Source of the DNA: Bacteroidota bacterium
GTDB taxonomy: Bacteria > Bacteroidota > Bacteroidia > Bacteroidales > Lentimicrobiaceae
DNA length: 64,000 nucleotides
NCBI GenBank assembly: GCA_009773515.1
Contig: WSXX01000022.1
Location: 1 to 64,000 of the forward strand
Direction: 5' to 3'
Shown: positions 1-9,520 of the stretch, piece after piece
Position numbering within the stretch: the stretch's first letter is position 1
Layout of the letters: each line of letters opens with the position of its first letter
The notes under the pieces: model-generated
Databases searched by the model: none
What the model was told of the DNA's origin: nothing
Seen by the model: the letters and a program-made list of their open reading frames with translations, nothing else
Program-made: the position numbers and the translations under genes

Positions 1-100
1 TCTAATCCCAAAATTTTGCTATTTTTACCACCTCTTCTGTCACTGAAATAGTGGCCTACTTTGCTCCGGAATAGTGGCCTACTTTCACCGGAATATTCAA
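1..100. mobile_element. End of an insertion sequence (possibly IS21-like)
   Basis: A 16-base word, AATAGTGGCCTACTTT, occurs twice in direct orientation at 47-62 and 70-85, 23 bases apart. Just inside it (from about position 101 rightward) the minus strand encodes a normal ABC-exporter membrane segment; to the left the similarity stops, although the reading frame stays open to the edge. Multiple short repeats at a terminus are typical of IS21-family elements, so I read this as one end of such an element inserted in the transporter gene. No transposase is visible in the window, so the family is a guess from the repeated terminal word. Confidence 0.45.
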
Positions 101-758
101 TCAGTTGGGCAATAAGCACAAGTGTAACAAAGCCAAGGTTTTGATTGCCTATACCTTTATCAACAACTGCCTGAGTGAGAAAGGGTGTAATAAGCTGTAA
201 TAAACTACCCAGCAACATTGCCAGCATAATTTGCACCAGAAAACTCCTGTGTGGACGCAAATACTGTAACAAAAACCGGAATCTTTTTTTATCAAGCTTT
301 TCATCTTCTATGCTGTAAAAATCGGGACCTGGTTCAAGTAGCAAAGCTATTCCTTTTTCTTCACCCTCTGTTTTATCGCTTAACCACCCCCGTAAAAACT
401 CTTCATGTGTATATTTTACCAACCCGTGTGCAGGATCAGCAACCCAAACTATATTTTTTTTTCCTTTTCCGGTAATTTTATACATTACAACAAAATGATT
501 TTGTTTCCAATGAACAATGCAGGGTAAAGGCGCTTCGTTTGCAAGTTGATCCCAACCCAGGCGAACACCTATAGTTCTGAACCCTATCTTTTCAGCAGCA
601 TCGCTAATGCCGAGTAAGGAAACACCATCTTTCTCAATAAAACATTTTTCGCGCAAACTTTGAATGCTATGTTTTTTTCCATAATGCCCAGTAATCATTT
701 TAAGGCAGGTGGGGCCGCAATCACGGGAATCAAGTTGGAAAGATGTTTTGAATTTCAT
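1..758 (-). CDS. C39 peptidase-containing ABC exporter, N-terminal part, interrupted by an IS end
   Basis: Bacteriocin-type exporter that would cut the double-glycine leader from the precursor peptide and export the product through the inner membrane. The frame starts at ATG 758, overlapping the SPASM gene stop (ATGA). Residues 1 to about 130 are a C39 peptidase: Cys14 in DCGPTC, the histidine in KQNHFVV, and the aspartate in VADPAHG form the expected catalytic set. From about residue 170 a hydrophobic membrane domain begins (ITPFLTQAVVDKG). After LIAQLIEYSG the expected transmembrane sequence is replaced by unrelated sequence containing the repeated IS-like word, so the gene looks disrupted near position 100. 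The ATPase domain is outside the window or lost. The peptidase identity is firm; the disruption is inferred. Confidence 0.8.
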   Translation of the reverse strand, partial: MKFKTSFQLDSRDCGPTCLKMITGHYGKKHSIQSLREKCFIEKDGVSLLGISDAAEKIGFRTIGVRLGWDQLANEAPLPCIVHWKQNHFVVMYKITGKGKKNIVWVADPAHGLVKYTHEEFLRGWLSDKTEGEEKGIALLLEPGPDFYSIEDEKLDKKRFRFLLQYLRPHRSFLVQIMLAMLLGSLLQLITPFLTQAVVDKGIGNQNLGFVTLVLIAQLIEYSGESRPLFRSKVGHYFSDRRGGKNSKILGL

Positions 759-1822
759 TGAGTATTATTCTTACGCCACTTTTCAACTGTAATATACCCC
801 TTTTGTCCTTTCCATTTGCATATATATGGGTTGTAATTACATTTTGCTGGTTGTGAATAAATATTTGAAGTATCCTTAATGTTAGCTCTGCAATCAGTAC
901 ATAAATACCTAAATTCACAATCTTTGCATACATCAATTTTATCTTTAGTAATTTTCCATAAAGACTTAAAACCTTCTTCATTTAGTACTTCAACAAGCGA
1001 TTTATATTTTATATTGCCAAAACTTGTTTTCATGCTTGGACAATTTCTAATTTCACCATAGGCATCTATGCTGATCTTTCTGTTCAGACAAGTGTTGAAA
1101 TTCTTTGATTCTACAAAATGATTCAAATTAGGGCAAAAGTATTTTTTAGATACTATCCCGCAATCATCTAAAGAAGTAAAATGTTTTTTAGTAAAAACAA
1201 TATAAGATAACTTATCGATGACTTTTACCACTTTAGAATATGGTGAACTGTGAAAAATCAAAGAATTAATCCTCACATTTTTTCTAACAATTTTTTTTAG
1301 CCTAAGAATTGGTACCTCATTTTTTGGGTAAGGTATCAAAATTTGTACGGTATTAACGTTACTTCTTTCACAAGCAATTACCATACTTTCAATAATACTG
1401 AAATCGATATCAATGAGAGCCCTTATTTGAAGATGTGGTATCCTGAGATTAATAATCTGATCTATTAGATTCAGATAATCTATAGCAGAGTCGCTTCCAA
1501 TATCAATTATAACATTACTCAGCGGGAAGGGTAAATCCCATTCTTCGCGGATATCTGGGAAACGATGAAACTCATCCAAGGAATTGCACCAGAAACCATA
1601 TTCCCTATCAATTAGAAAGTTAAAATATTCATGAATTACTGAATGGTTTTCTTTTTCATAGAAATTCTCTAATTCCTCCTTGCTTTTGCCCCTGCTTACG
1701 TTTATTAATTCATACAAATCATTGGGAATTGCTTCATAAATACCACGTTGTAAATCAATAATTACAGAGCGAAAGGAGCCTTTTACCAATTTACAACATG
1801 CAAACAAATTGAAATATTTCAT
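755..1822 (-). CDS. SPASM-domain peptide maturase (GRASP-with-SPASM type)
   Basis: A 355-residue protein whose C-terminal third is a SPASM domain, the auxiliary iron-sulfur domain of peptide-modifying enzymes. From about residue 250 to the end it shows cysteines in CLNRKISIDAYGEIRNCPS, then CKDCEFRYLCTDC and a final CNYNPYIC pair, as expected for cluster ligands. The N-terminal part has no CxxxCxxC motif, so the canonical SAM-binding cluster of radical SAM enzymes is absent. This fits the family called SPASM domain peptide maturase in the grasp-with-spasm system, whose members pair with an ATP-grasp ligase. It lies in a tight minus-strand operon, 9 bases after the 66-residue gene and overlapping the exporter start. 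Whether it is catalytic or an accessory to the ligase cannot be told from sequence. Confidence 0.8.
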   Translation of the reverse strand: MKYFNLFACCKLVKGSFRSVIIDLQRGIYEAIPNDLYELINVSRGKSKEELENFYEKENHSVIHEYFNFLIDREYGFWCNSLDEFHRFPDIREEWDLPFPLSNVIIDIGSDSAIDYLNLIDQIINLRIPHLQIRALIDIDFSIIESMVIACERSNVNTVQILIPYPKNEVPILRLKKIVRKNVRINSLIFHSSPYSKVVKVIDKLSYIVFTKKHFTSLDDCGIVSKKYFCPNLNHFVESKNFNTCLNRKISIDAYGEIRNCPSMKTSFGNIKYKSLVEVLNEEGFKSLWKITKDKIDVCKDCEFRYLCTDCRANIKDTSNIYSQPAKCNYNPYICKWKGQKGYITVEKWRKNNTQ

Positions 1823-1831
1823 AGCAGGAAA

Positions 1832-2032
1832 TTAGATAGCTCTTGAGATTGATTTGTAAAGCTCAGTAATTGAATAGCATGTTGTTGCCAAATCTTCAAT
1901 CTCTATTAGCTTGATTACAGGATAATCCTTCATTAGATCTTTTTTTTCTTTAACATCAACATTTCGCAAAGCGAGGGATCCGTGCACTTTTATGATCTGG
2001 ACCAGTTCATTCTTATTATTACATTTTTCCAT
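1832..2032 (-). CDS. Small protein of unknown function in the peptide operon
   Basis: A 66-residue frame that starts with ATG inside the end of the ATP-grasp gene (14-base overlap) and stops 9 bases before the SPASM gene. This coupling supports translation. It is rich in Lys, Glu and Asp, has two cysteines (residues 4 and 52), no signal peptide, no membrane segment and no double-glycine leader, so it does not look like a second precursor. It could be an adaptor or recognition element between ligase and SPASM protein, or a small regulator. I do not recognise a family. Confidence 0.55.
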   Translation of the reverse strand: MEKCNNKNELVQIIKVHGSLALRNVDVKEKKDLMKDYPVIKLIEIEDLATTCYSITELYKSISRAI

Positions 2033-2984
2033 TTTCTATAGATAATAAGTTTTGTGCGATTTCGCGTTCAAGAAAAAAATTACATGGCTTGCTAATCATT
2101 CCAAATTGTCCAGCAGGATTTACTTCAAGAAATATATAATCACCATTTGAATTTACAATCATGTCTATAGACCCTGTTTTAAGACCAAGTTTTCTCATAA
2201 GAACTGTAAGTTTCTTTTCAATAAATTTTGGTAAAATGTATGGGACAATACGATTCGGTTTTTTCTGGTCATAATTTCTAAAATCTAGGTTTGTTTTATC
2301 ATTTGACTGAGAGAAAATTGCACTTGCAAAAAACTTCCCATTCAAAAAGAAGATTCTCAATTCATATTTTTTAACTACCTCTTTTTGAGTCAAACTGATG
2401 ATAAACTCTTCAGGAATAATTGAATTCTCTATACGTTTTGTATAACCATTACAGGAGAATTTCTTTGTATAGAATTGGATGTTTGAAATTGATTTAGCTA
2501 TTACATAATTTCCTTTGAAGTATTTATCTAAATATTTTTTCCTGTTTGTAATCAATGTTTGAGGAATTGACAGACCCACAATTGCAGCTTCCTTGAGCAC
2601 TATGAATTTATTGATTTCTGCATTATTAAGTTCGCCGATTACCTTTTTAGAATCCAATAGGAAATAAATAAAATCGATTATTGCAGAAATATCTCTTTTC
2701 GATATCAAGTCTATTTGAGATATACCCGTTTCATTTAATTGATCTTCAAATATTATACTTCCCTTTCTCATCCATATAGAATCAATTGCCTTCAGGTCTA
2801 TCTTAGCTCTGTTTGATGTAGAAATTTTTACTTCTGATTCTCCATTTGGTTCTATAGTCACACTTAGTTCTTTTATATGATTGTTTTCATTTATAATTAA
2901 TAAATCGCTATTCGAGATGTATTTAATCCAATTCGCAACTTCGTAAGTGCTTTGGTCAAAATCTATTGAAACAATTAATATCAT
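2019..2984 (-). CDS. ATP-grasp peptide maturase (graspetide ligase, GwsG-like)
   Basis: A 321-residue ATP-grasp ligase expected to make ester or amide crosslinks between acidic side chains and Ser/Thr/Lys side chains of the precursor, as graspetide synthetases do. It opens with an Asp-containing strand (MILIVSIDFDQST), has a WMRKG motif near residue 92, a central lysine-containing nucleotide-binding region (KGNYVIAKSISN), and ends with the metal-binding signature EVNPAGQFGMISKPCNFFL near residues 283-301, which is characteristic of the grasp-with-spasm ligases. It lies between the membrane-anchored unknown and the 66-residue gene on the same strand. The ATG at 2984 is preceded by AT-rich sequence without a clear Shine-Dalgarno, common in this phylum. 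Confidence 0.85.
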   Translation of the reverse strand: MILIVSIDFDQSTYEVANWIKYISNSDLLIINENNHIKELSVTIEPNGESEVKISTSNRAKIDLKAIDSIWMRKGSIIFEDQLNETGISQIDLISKRDISAIIDFIYFLLDSKKVIGELNNAEINKFIVLKEAAIVGLSIPQTLITNRKKYLDKYFKGNYVIAKSISNIQFYTKKFSCNGYTKRIENSIIPEEFIISLTQKEVVKKYELRIFFLNGKFFASAIFSQSNDKTNLDFRNYDQKKPNRIVPYILPKFIEKKLTVLMRKLGLKTGSIDMIVNSNGDYIFLEVNPAGQFGMISKPCNFFLEREIAQNLLSIENGKM

Positions 2985-3027
2985 TATTTTTAATTAAAGT
3001 GTATTATTCATTGTCGAACCAAAGATT

Positions 3028-4092
3028 TTAATAATTTTCTATTAAGTTTTTGCTTAGATGATTGTAATCCTCTATATTTGAAATGGTAAAAAATTGTACA
3101 CCACCCATAAATTTAAAATGAAATCTATTGTCTTTCTGACTGTATAAAACCTTTCGTCTTAAATCACCGATCGACTCAAGTCCGAATGTTTTTCTTTCCT
3201 GATTAATCTCTGCCATTTTATCGTCCGGAATTTTTACAAAACCTGTTTTATGTGGAAATGACCTGTAATTATCCCTGTTACAAATATTAAGTGTATCATA
3301 AGCTATTGTGGTCAGGCCAGAATAATTTATATTTAACTCATTAGTGTAATTTATGTGTGCTATCAGAAATTGAACCCTGTCAGGCTCAATCAGGCAATTC
3401 TCATAAGCATTATATAAATCTTCTGAATAATTGTAAACCTGATTCTTGGAACCACTTTGATGCATAATAATTGTTTGAAAACCAGGATGACCAAAATCAT
3501 AAGTTCCAATAATATCCATGGTTGGCCAACCATAGTTTTTTATAAGTTCATTCATGAGTTTAACATTTGAAGCATCAATCTTATTGATAGTATCGCCATA
3601 ATAATCCATATAACTACCTGGGTGATTCTTACGGAATAACTGGTCGGAATATACAATAGAATCATATTTTGCTCTCAAAACAATATCATAAGTGGACTTA
3701 ATATCTAGCTCTAAAATGTCTTTACCATAAATTGATAACAGGAAAGTCGAGAATGCTTGATTATCCTTAATCAAATTACGATTTAGCCCTTTTTCCATTA
3801 GAAAAATAGCTCCTGCCCTGCATTTCTGGTAATTCCCGGTAATTGCGTTACAAACTAATTCGTTAAATCGATCTCGAAAAAAGGGTGAATGTGTATTGTT
3901 GAAAGCACTGTCGTAATAAATTAACGCTTTTTCGTAAGTTGAATCAATAATTGCGAGTTCAGCCAGATTAGTATAATAACTATATAGTCTGATATTGCAT
4001 GTTTTTTGGAGGTGAGATCCTTTAGCAATATAAAAAAATATCATTGAAAAAACAAGCGAAAACGAAAAGAGAATGAATCTTTTATTTATCAT
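3028..4092 (-). CDS. Membrane-anchored or secreted protein of unknown function in the graspetide cluster
   Basis: About 354 residues from ATG 4092; a longer frame begins at a TTG at 4131 but lacks merit because a signal anchor starts directly at the ATG (KRFILFSFSLVFSMIFFYIA). The rest is soluble, with an N-terminal half that could be helical repeats and a C-terminal half containing NYGWPTMDIIG and a later IIMHQ. That GWP...HQ arrangement faintly resembles DUF6624 proteins, but I would not assign it on this basis. Because it lies between the precursor and the ligase on the same strand it is probably co-transcribed. It could be an immunity, folding or processing factor facing the periplasm. 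Confidence 0.6.
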   Translation of the reverse strand: MINKRFILFSFSLVFSMIFFYIAKGSHLQKTCNIRLYSYYTNLAELAIIDSTYEKALIYYDSAFNNTHSPFFRDRFNELVCNAITGNYQKCRAGAIFLMEKGLNRNLIKDNQAFSTFLLSIYGKDILELDIKSTYDIVLRAKYDSIVYSDQLFRKNHPGSYMDYYGDTINKIDASNVKLMNELIKNYGWPTMDIIGTYDFGHPGFQTIIMHQSGSKNQVYNYSEDLYNAYENCLIEPDRVQFLIAHINYTNELNINYSGLTTIAYDTLNICNRDNYRSFPHKTGFVKIPDDKMAEINQERKTFGLESIGDLRRKVLYSQKDNRFHFKFMGGVQFFTISNIEDYNHLSKNLIENY

Positions 4093-4165
4093 AAAAGTAT
4101 AAAATTTTATGGATGAGGAATGGCATATCAAAAATTATTGAAATGCCATTCCATATTTAATTTTA

Positions 4166-4390
4166 TTAATCGCAATTTTGAACATCCTTGATGTTATAAT
4201 AATCTCCAGCTGTTGTGTCACTTGTATATGTGACATACCCTGTAGCCGAGATTTCAGTATTCACAGATCTGCAACCTGCTTTTGTTTCAGTACTAGCTTG
4301 ACCTCCAGTAAGATGGGACATAGCTTTTAAATTTAAACCTAAGCTTCTGAAGCTCTCAAGACTTTGCAACTTTTTCATAATTTTTAACAT
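4166..4390 (-). CDS. Double-glycine leader precursor peptide of the graspetide cluster
   Basis: A 74-residue (or 70-residue from the second ATG at 4378) peptide. The leader has the pattern MKKLQSLESF...LKAMSHLTGG, with the GG at residues 29-30, like natural product precursors of the GG-Bacteroidales type. The 44-residue core after GG is rich in Thr, Ser, Tyr, Asp, Glu and Gly, and holds two cysteines (40 and 73), offering many donor and acceptor side chains for ester or amide crosslinks. The C39 exporter further down would cut after the GG. It is the first gene of the operon, 73 bases ahead of the membrane-anchored unknown. Which residues are linked cannot be predicted. Confidence 0.8.
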   Translation of the reverse strand: MLKIMKKLQSLESFRSLGLNLKAMSHLTGGQASTETKAGCRSVNTEISATGYVTYTSDTTAGDYYNIKDVQNCD

Positions 4391-4477
4391 TTTTGATATT
4401 TTTACCGGGCTGCGTTTATAGTGGCGTCACCCTTATCACTTGCATTTAGTATCCGGCCGTTGATAACAAATGCGAAA

Positions 4478-4485
4478 CAAAGATA
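4478..4485 (-). promoter_or_regulatory. Probable -7 element of the graspetide operon
   Basis: TATCTTTG on the minus strand matches the Bacteroidota -7 consensus TAnnTTTG and lies about 88 bases upstream of the precursor ATG. No good -33 TTG is seen at 19-21 bases, which would fit an activator-dependent promoter. Confidence 0.45.
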
Positions 4486-4531
4486 TTGAATATAGGGAAA
4501 AATATTTGAAATGGTCAACATAAATCATATG

Positions 4532-4561
4532 TGGTTAGTTATTACATACAACTGGTTACGA
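4532..4561. promoter_or_regulatory. Paired direct repeats, candidate LytTR binding site
   Basis: TGGTTAGTT (4532-4540) and TGGTTACGA (4553-4561) share TGGTTA and start 21 bases apart, leaving a 12-base gap. LytTR regulators typically bind two 9-base direct repeats with a 12-13-base spacer containing GTT. The pair lies between the LytTR gene and the precursor, 47 bases upstream of the candidate -7 element. Confidence 0.4.
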
Positions 4562-4581
4562 TTATCATGAAAGTGGGTAAC

Positions 4582-4932
4582 TCAAGAATCAAAAAAAACT
4601 TTTATTATCTGCCATTTTCTACGTGAAACTGAAAGAACTGTATCATTACTTAAAATAATTTCACGCGTTTTTGACTTCATCCTCTTTACATACGCCATGT
4701 TAACTATTTTGTTATGATTGATTCGAAGGAAGCCAAATTCGCCCAAACATTTTTCAATATCGGTAAGCGAATTGGTATAAGAAACAGGGGTATTGTCTCC
4801 GACAAGGATTACTGTTACAATGTTTCCATCACATTCAAGCCAGAGTATTTCATTATAAGGGACAATATGCCTAAGTGACTTTTCTTTTATTAATAGAGTC
4901 TTTTCTTTTTGTTTAGTGAAATCACAACTCAT
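4582..4932 (-). CDS. Stand-alone LytTR-domain DNA-binding regulator
   Basis: About 116 residues from ATG 4932; the TTG at 4977 would only add an unlikely extension. Nearly the whole protein is one LytTR domain: IVPYNEILWLECDGN near the start, then YTNSLTDIEKCL, the conserved FLRINHNKIVNMAYV block, and a terminal LSVSRRKW. There is no receiver, membrane or sensor domain, so activity must be set by abundance, a partner or a ligand. It is encoded just upstream of, and on the same strand as, the precursor gene, with candidate LytTR-type repeats in the gap, so it is the likely local regulator of the peptide cluster. Confidence 0.8.
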   Translation of the reverse strand: MSCDFTKQKEKTLLIKEKSLRHIVPYNEILWLECDGNIVTVILVGDNTPVSYTNSLTDIEKCLGEFGFLRINHNKIVNMAYVKRMKSKTREIILSNDTVLSVSRRKWQIIKVFFDS

Positions 4933-8769: not shown

Positions 8770-9520
8770 TTCCTCCAGCTAAAGCTGGAGTGAACTCAGC
8801 AGGAGGGAATTCAGGAATAAAAGAAAATACTAAAAGAAAATCATATGAATTGCCACACGGCTTTAGCCTGTGGCAATAAATGGTTATGGTTTTAAGGGGT
8901 TTTAGCCCAAATTTTATAACATAATGGTTGGGCTAAAGCCCGGAATGGTATTGAGGTTTTTTATTAACCTTCCTCCAGCTAAAGCAGGAGGGAACTCAGC
9001 AGGAGGGAACTCAGCAGGAGGGAATTTGTAAGAGATATGCAATTTGAGCATTGGTGTTGCACGCGTCAGGGGACGCGCGCGAGCGGCATTGGGAATAGAA
9101 TAAAAGAAAATGTGATAAGAAAATCAAATGAATTGCCACATGGCTATAGCCTGTGGCAATAAATGGTTATGGTTTTAAGGGGCTTTAGCCCAAATTTTAT
9201 AACATAAAGGTTGGGCTAAAGCCCGGAATGGTATTGAAGTTTTTTTATCCTCCAGCTAAAGCAGGAGGGAACTCAGCAGGAGGGAATTCAGCAGGAGGGA
9301 ATTCAGAAGGAGGGAATTCGTAAGAGATATGCAATTTGAGCGTTGGTGTTGCACGCGTCAGGGGACGCGCGCGAGCGACATTGGGAATGAAAAAAATGTT
9401 ATAAGAAACTCAAATGACTTGCTATGGCTTTAGCCCGTGGCAAGAAAAGGGTGATGGTTTTGAGGGGCTTTAGCCCAAAATTTCAAAAGTGCTTGGATGT
9501 AGCCCAAAGTGGGTTTTGAA
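8770..9520. repeat. Tandem block of hairpin-rich intergenic repeats
   Basis: Two full and one decayed copy of a roughly 280-base unit. Each contains hairpins with a TAAA (or TTTA) loop and different stems: CTCCAGC/GCTGGAG at 8773-8790; TTGCCACA..GGC/GCC..TGTGGCAA at 8850-8876; GGGC/GCCC at 8930-8941 and again near 9210. The units also carry AGGAGGGAA repeats and two copies of a GC-rich word (CACGCGTCAGGGGACGCGCG, at about 9060 and 9352) that recurs at about 33953. No coding frame is convincing in this 840-base gap. Confidence 0.8.

Follow-up and report, generated by a model that had tools for sequence, protein, structure and literature searches.

What does the gene cluster at the start of contig WSXX01000022.1 (C15) of a Lentimicrobiaceae genome (Bacteroidota bacterium, GCA_009773515.1) make, and what part does its SPASM protein play? 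The cluster occupies positions 1–4932 of the window, the whole 64-kb stretch analysed here, which begins at base 1 of C15 in a source genome of 5.03 Mb and 67 contigs. The best overall explanation, in which we place moderate confidence, is a graspetide-type cluster of the grasp-with-spasm kind, lying between rimP and a DUF2723 gene, with a SPASM protein of the adapter type and an exporter split by an insertion. The features named in an original prediction made from the letters of the window (a precursor with a double-glycine (GG) leader, an ATP-grasp ligase, a SPASM protein, the start of a C39-peptidase exporter and a LytTR regulator) were all found on the minus strand, with family scores above cut-off for all but the precursor. 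That prediction had called the gene set complete, and had overlooked two genes typical of the family, a 367-codon open reading frame (ORF) at 3028–4131 and a 66-aa ORF at 1832–2032. Transcription on the minus strand runs from the LytTR gene through the precursor, the 367-codon ORF, the ligase, the 66-aa ORF and the SPASM gene to the start of the exporter, and all frames but that of the exporter are intact.

1–99, strand not applicable: a terminus of a probable IS21-type insertion element, with which the contig opens; recurs exactly at the ends of C39 and C51
100–758, minus: N-terminal part of an ABC exporter, comprising the C39 peptidase domain and the initial membrane segments and interrupted by the insertion; PF03412, 114 bits
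755–1822, minus: SPASM protein with a predicted RRE-like domain, a reduced barrel without CxxxCxxC and an 8-Cys SPASM domain; TIGR04193, 322 bits
1832–2032, minus: small protein of the LPL family, 66 aa; blastp match to the ORF in the same place in L044
2019–2984, minus: ATP-grasp peptide ligase, gwsG-type; TIGR04192, 274 bits
3028–4131, minus: TPR and DUF6624-like protein of the 'cluster 23' kind, 367 codons; homologues in many clusters
4166–4390, minus: graspetide-type precursor, GG leader and 44-residue core; recognised from its sequence
4582–4932, minus: LytTR DNA-binding regulator, the ORF being open from TTG 4977; PF04397, 55.5 bits

Assignment to a known kind of cluster

Judged by sequence, the cluster is of the grasp-with-spasm kind (NCBIfam TIGR04192 and TIGR04193), falls in branch 5 of the 2022 survey PMC8939145, and is not new in kind. 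The graspetide-type assignment of the original prediction was borne out by the ligase (TIGR04192, 274 bits against a cut-off of 230) and the SPASM protein (TIGR04193, 322 bits against 175). As in other grasp-with-spasm systems, these two proteins above curated cut-offs are joined by a GG-leader precursor, a C39 exporter and HlyD; the window cluster differs in a precursor that scores below the TIGR04149 cut-off and has a relative in just one other of the 393 genomes of the order, in a LytTR regulator of a type seen near at least 3/97 SPASM genes, and in its split exporter. With branch 5 of PMC8939145 it shares the SPASM, LPL and cluster 23 kinds of protein, a small protein encoded immediately before the SPASM gene, and a core with Thr/Ser, Asp and Cys; it differs in an LPL motif that is degenerate by eye, and the survey's radical SAM label is unsupported by the motif count given below.

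The ligase probably belongs to graspetide group 14 of PMC13097080, the accessible text of which describes no product for that group. The products of such systems had been called uncharacterised, and the literature searched indeed yielded no characterised product of the SPASM-linked group. The name grasp-with-spasm gave no paper, gwsS and gwsG gave unrelated ones among the 15 listed of 150 (gwsG appears as a name on plasmid records), and a search for TIGR04193 and pseudo-radical-SAM SPASM proteins returned PMC8939145 as the one relevant paper. As far as can be told, the precursor, the insertion, the fusions of LPL and SPASM proteins and the lack of the radical motif in all 97 family members are new.

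The SPASM protein lacks the radical-SAM cluster motif

The SPASM protein, the gene of which lies about 200 bases from that of the ligase, also matches PF13186 (30 bits, cut-off 21.5). A scan of a species-genome collection returned 525 relatives, the best 80 of which (79 loci) were kept; these are mostly from Bacteroidota, with a few from Acidobacteria-type and Gemmatimonadetes bins. Family counts refer to a set of 97 SPASM proteins, each 300 aa or longer, drawn from 92 loci; the set is skewed to near relatives, and L042, L044, L052 and L057 were dropped from it as duplicates of other loci.

The motif of the radical-SAM cluster, CxxxCxxC, is absent from the window protein and was found in 0/97 members. 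The barrel region (residues 90–218) holds one cysteine in the window protein, and any C..C pair occurs there in 2/97. C10, C221, C245, C261, C299, C302, C308, C311 and C328 are present in 93–100% of the 97. All of these except C10, which lies near the N terminus, we assign, by analogy with the anaerobic sulphatase-maturating enzymes, to two auxiliary clusters of four cysteines each. Loss of the radical-SAM motif with retention of both SPASM iron-sulphur sites suggests that the protein would act as an adapter and not as a radical enzyme.

The read-through fusion of the small protein and the SPASM protein was modelled with AlphaFold2 (AF2) from a 54-sequence alignment. The SPASM part was predicted with a pLDDT of about 86–98 and a reduced barrel. 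Residues 72–148 of the fused model, corresponding to the first ~80 of the SPASM protein, resemble the lasso B1 leader-binding protein 6jx3 (Z 10.1, 2.0 Å over 77 residues), and the same RRE-like region resembles TbiB1 (5v1v; Z 8.9); the predicted fold has the three-strand sheet and three helices of an RRE. As a whole the model matches TigE (Z 12.7) and CteB (Z 12.5), and its later part PqqE (Z 12.1); in a sequence search of the PDB, the SPASM profile found no match at E 0.1. The order of leader-binding domain, barrel and SPASM domain is that of the RRE-SPASM radical SAM maturases CteB and TigE, from which the window protein differs by its missing radical-SAM cluster motif and reduced barrel. 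Our preferred reading makes it a pseudo-radical-SAM adapter that would hold the leader for the ligase together with the LPL protein: the motif loss is observed, the leader-binding domain is predicted by the model and the role is proposed.

A separate radical SAM enzyme was considered as a general companion of these clusters. A screen for CxxxCxxC in neighbouring ORFs of at least 200 aa listed 12/92 loci, of which by eye about eight are radical-SAM-like candidates for peptide maturases and two or more, L081 and L130 among them, resemble chance matches, and the companion was rejected on these counts; that radical-SAM-like ORFs were detected in the flanks indicates that the screen works. Such ORFs stand beside a motif-less SPASM protein at L082 9269–10606, L096 9021–10367 and L086 3173–4480.

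As a separate observation, the window SPASM protein has Ile at residue 128 (about base 1440), as does its nearest relative, L044/L078, in the A1 alignment; 89% of the 97 have Cys at this position.

A small protein between the ligase and SPASM genes

The 66-aa ORF overlaps the ligase gene by 14 bases and lies nine bases upstream of the SPASM gene. Its product is 37.5% identical over 64 aa (blastp, E 4e-8) to a small ORF in the same place in L044/L078, and by position and relatedness it is assigned to the LPL family, the name given to such small proteins in PMC8939145, where a PqqD-like role is proposed and a resemblance to the Phhx(1,2)h motif is pointed out. In nearly all loci the small ORF between the ligase and SPASM genes encodes a proline-containing hydrophobic motif and a FYKPISK-like tail. 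The window protein carries YKSIS at the tail position, and its motif looks degenerate, LAL replacing the proline motif in a by-eye alignment with L078. A profile places an LPL ORF beside 90/97 SPASM genes, with a median overlap of four bases. L089 and L091 encode LPL and SPASM as one protein, with LPL at the N-terminal end; in L125 the LPL gene remains beside that for SPASM, with the ligase encoded on the opposite strand. The 66-aa ORF was rejected as a second precursor on its lack of GG and on the conservation of its position and tail across loci.

Precursor and ligase

The precursor leader (4301–4390) ends in GG and is followed by a 44-residue core (4169–4300) that holds two cysteines, is rich in Thr, Ser, Asp and Glu, and is encoded near the ligase, as expected of a graspetide precursor; the likelier start is MKKL at 4378. 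The match to TIGR04149 is weak (13 bits, cut-off 25). There is no proline in the leader and hence no Phhx(1,2)h motif of the kind bound by microviridin-type ligases, which according to PMC8939145 is also missing from branch 5 precursors.

The original prediction could match this precursor to nothing described. A search of the 393 genomes of the order for homologous precursors, of the kind it had proposed, found a relative 43–45% identical in one other genome (G029, L044/L078), itself within a ligase–SPASM cluster. L079 has a weaker relative, and no homologue without a ligase was seen. Cysteine is frequent in the precursor cores of related loci. A strict core motif, [YW][ST]SD, occurs in 8/83 precursor-like ORFs against a mean of 0.43 and a maximum of 3 in 500 shuffles, this form having been picked post hoc. 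The broad form [YWFT][STNCR][SEDT]D was discarded as not significant: 14/83 ORFs have it, and shuffled sequences gave 8.0 on average and up to 17.

In the ligase, residues K164, R210, D234, R236, D274, E287, N289 and G292 are invariant in 93/93 aligned sequences, and its sequence relatives in the PDB are AMdnB (7m4s), 5ig8, 5ig9 and CdnC (7mgv). From this family membership and these conserved residues we infer that the product of the precursor would be crosslinked.

A probable IS21-type element splits the exporter

The exporter was expected to be broken, and it truly is; the break is no mere cut at the edge of the window, as a probable IS21-type element splits the gene and the other half lies on contig C14. 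The part in the window contains the C39 peptidase domain (PF03412, cut-off 22). Besides the exact recurrence of bases 1–99 of C15 at two other contig ends, a related element end with GTGGCCTACTTT repeats occurs at the ends of C14, C19, C33 and C60. C14 opens with the element end, followed by the missing part of the exporter (L070 about 100–1653; TIGR01193 profile positions to 707) and the HlyD gene. The exporter flanks on C15 and C14 share a direct repeat of six bases and, when joined minus one copy, give a single open frame of 735 codons, with the break point between the first membrane segments of the exporter and its ATPase. Further on, rimP and nusA follow on C14 and the DUF2723 gene on C15 (names that we take from recognition of the sequences). 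In 7/9 other genomes of the genus examined (18 others available), rimP lies roughly 0.5–0.8 kb from the DUF2723 gene with no cluster between. Given the recurring ends, the six-base duplication, the continuous frame and this synteny, C15 and C14 are adjacent and the cluster is inserted between rimP and the DUF2723 gene. On the same four observations, we rejected the idea that the exporter is broken through faulty assembly or because the window ends there.

The ends, repeats and six-base duplication of an IS21 element are seen here; an IstA-like transposase gene and IstB are seen in its nearest complete relative, in G011, and not in the window genome. The interior of the element was not found in the source assembly, where a search for IstB gave weak PF01695 matches at most, and so seems to be unassembled. 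A plasmid search with the element end gave no match. Export after GG cleavage, as had been predicted for the product, probably fails in the genome as assembled, given that the element separates the first membrane segments from the ATPase.

Proposed working and alternative explanations

In the working that we propose, the LytTR protein would switch the cluster on. The GG leader, which has no proline motif of the kind bound by other graspetide ligases, would dock instead on the RRE-like domain, a predicted fold, in the SPASM protein. The SPASM protein, with both iron-sulphur sites and without the radical-SAM motif, would be an adapter partnered by the LPL protein, as their observed fusions and adjacency suggest, and the LPL protein may help to present the precursor to the ATP-grasp ligase or to activate the enzyme. 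The ligase would then join Thr or Ser to Asp or Glu of the core through ester or amide links, as its family and conserved residues suggest, and the C39 exporter with HlyD would cleave after GG and export the product. With the exporter split, the peptide is probably made but not exported in the genome as assembled.

Several observations weigh against this working. The cysteines of the auxiliary clusters are partly missing in 3/15 A1 members (L051, L053, L054), and where intact they hint at a redox use that would be superfluous in a pure adapter. PMC8939145 calls these SPASM proteins radical SAM enzymes, a label with which the absence of the motif in the 97 sequences conflicts; no statement on the missing radical motif of the TIGR04193 family was found in the searchable literature, and NCBI's own TIGR04193 text may already mention it. 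The count of LPL ORFs beside SPASM genes is partly circular, since these loci also served to train the profile. Two loci, L095 and L140, have the LPL gene after that of the ligase and separated from the SPASM gene by one of DUF6624 type, an order that would suit a ligase partner equally well. Finally, the LPL part of the AF2 fusion model has a pLDDT of about 41–55, so that no interface between LPL and SPASM proteins is supported by the model.

The alternative that survives best bears on the cluster as a whole: the exporter insertion may mark a loss of function, with the other genes not degraded yet. Such decay is a possibility we doubt. It would agree with the IS21-type element in the exporter, with the detection of the cluster in 2/19 genomes of the genus, and with a decayed SPASM copy of the window type in another of these genomes, G007 (contig C11, L058 6068–6679), which is 73% identical over its first 54 residues, then runs into frameshifts and stops, and lies apart from the intact cluster of that genome. 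However, the remaining frames of the window cluster are all intact, and the exporter frame is open both before and after the element, so that the insertion looks recent.

A second alternative retains the ligase and moves the LPL protein to its side, as a free-standing substitute for the leader motif, which would mainly activate the ATP-grasp enzyme in trans and leave the SPASM protein a separate role. We consider this unlikely. At most loci the LPL gene comes directly after that of the ligase, beside which it also remains in L095 and L140; PMC8939145 notes a resemblance of LPL to the Phhx(1,2)h motif, and partner-dependent graspetide synthetases are reported for other groups in PMC13097080, but the fusions in L089 and L091 and the arrangement in L125 tie LPL to the SPASM protein. 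The weakest alternative, and a quite improbable one, is the catalytic reading of PMC8939145, by which the SPASM protein would use two auxiliary clusters and perhaps a non-canonical SAM site to link the core cysteines through thioethers or otherwise, the ligase adding esters or amides: the two complete four-cysteine sets, the frequency of cysteine in precursor cores (two in the window core) and a predicted fold close to TigE and CteB speak for it, against which stand the absence of CxxxCxxC in every member and the near absence of cysteine pairs in the barrel region, where the window protein has its single cysteine.

Returning to the adapter, a more general proposal can be put forward tentatively: grasp-with-spasm systems may be split recognition machines, in which a formerly radical SPASM protein with its RRE domain, together with LPL, forms an obligate leader adapter that feeds varying cores to the ligase. 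If true, this would explain why unrelated precursors occur beside closely related ligases, and the reading of TIGR04193 as a radical maturase would be wrong family-wide. The absence of the motif alters the modifications to be sought, dehydrations rather than thioethers, and also which proteins need to be co-expressed. Clusters like that of the window are numerous and make up a large uncharacterised group; the point about the SPASM family is the more general and the more useful one.

Module exchange among relatives

TIGR04193 exceeds its cut-off in 14/198 related genomes and TIGR04192 likewise in 14/198, 13 being common to both. The exceptions lie at contig edges: the SPASM matches of G099 begin at base 30 of one contig and base 9 of another, and the ligase of G187 ends 42 bases before a contig end. 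A ligase lies within 4 kb of 96/97 SPASM genes, the remaining one being at a contig start. Many loci are short and the other neighbourhood counts are therefore lower bounds, namely a DUF6624-type protein within 6 kb of at least 59/97 and, within 8 kb, an exporter near at least 66/97, HlyD near at least 49/97 and a LytTR gene of the window type near at least 3/97. Separately, L099, from a Chitinophagales bin, has three consecutive ligase–SPASM pairs on one contig, with several precursors.

Comparison within the genus gives a clear case of module exchange. The outer genes of the G007 cluster are close to those of the window (exporter 88% identical, rank 1/50; HlyD 70%, rank 1/40), a LytTR protein 54% identical is encoded upstream of the cluster, and the DUF2723 proteins of the two genomes are 75% identical. 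The core genes are distant, with 35% for the SPASM protein (rank 89/96) and 36% for the ligase (rank 50/92). The outer genes have thus been retained and the biosynthetic core swapped. Downstream of HlyD, the G007 cluster has another, short LytTR gene (L046 3856–4095), the product of which shares 57% identity with the window regulator over 60 residues.

Other genes of the locus

The LytTR regulator matches PF04397 above its cut-off of 22.6. For the 367-codon ORF the ATG start is probably at 4092, as read from the sequence. PF20329 was matched by 12/39 aligned members of its family, and the window protein gave no match at E 0.01. His223 and Arg312 are invariant in the 39 aligned DUF6624-like members. 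Its fold had no Foldseek match at E 0.001; the sole structural matches were TPR-like (best Z 6.6), with no function indicated. PMC8939145 describes from such loci a 'cluster 23' family of secreted proteins in which a His and an Arg are conserved, and PMC13097080 suggests that the DUF6624 proteins of other graspetide groups may form an enzyme class yet to be discovered. We treat the 367-codon protein as probably of the same kind as cluster 23 and DUF6624.

Outside the cluster, after the DUF2723 gene, a short near-tandem repeat with the translation PPAEFPPAEFPPALAGG lies at 8914–9051 of the window and is open on both strands.

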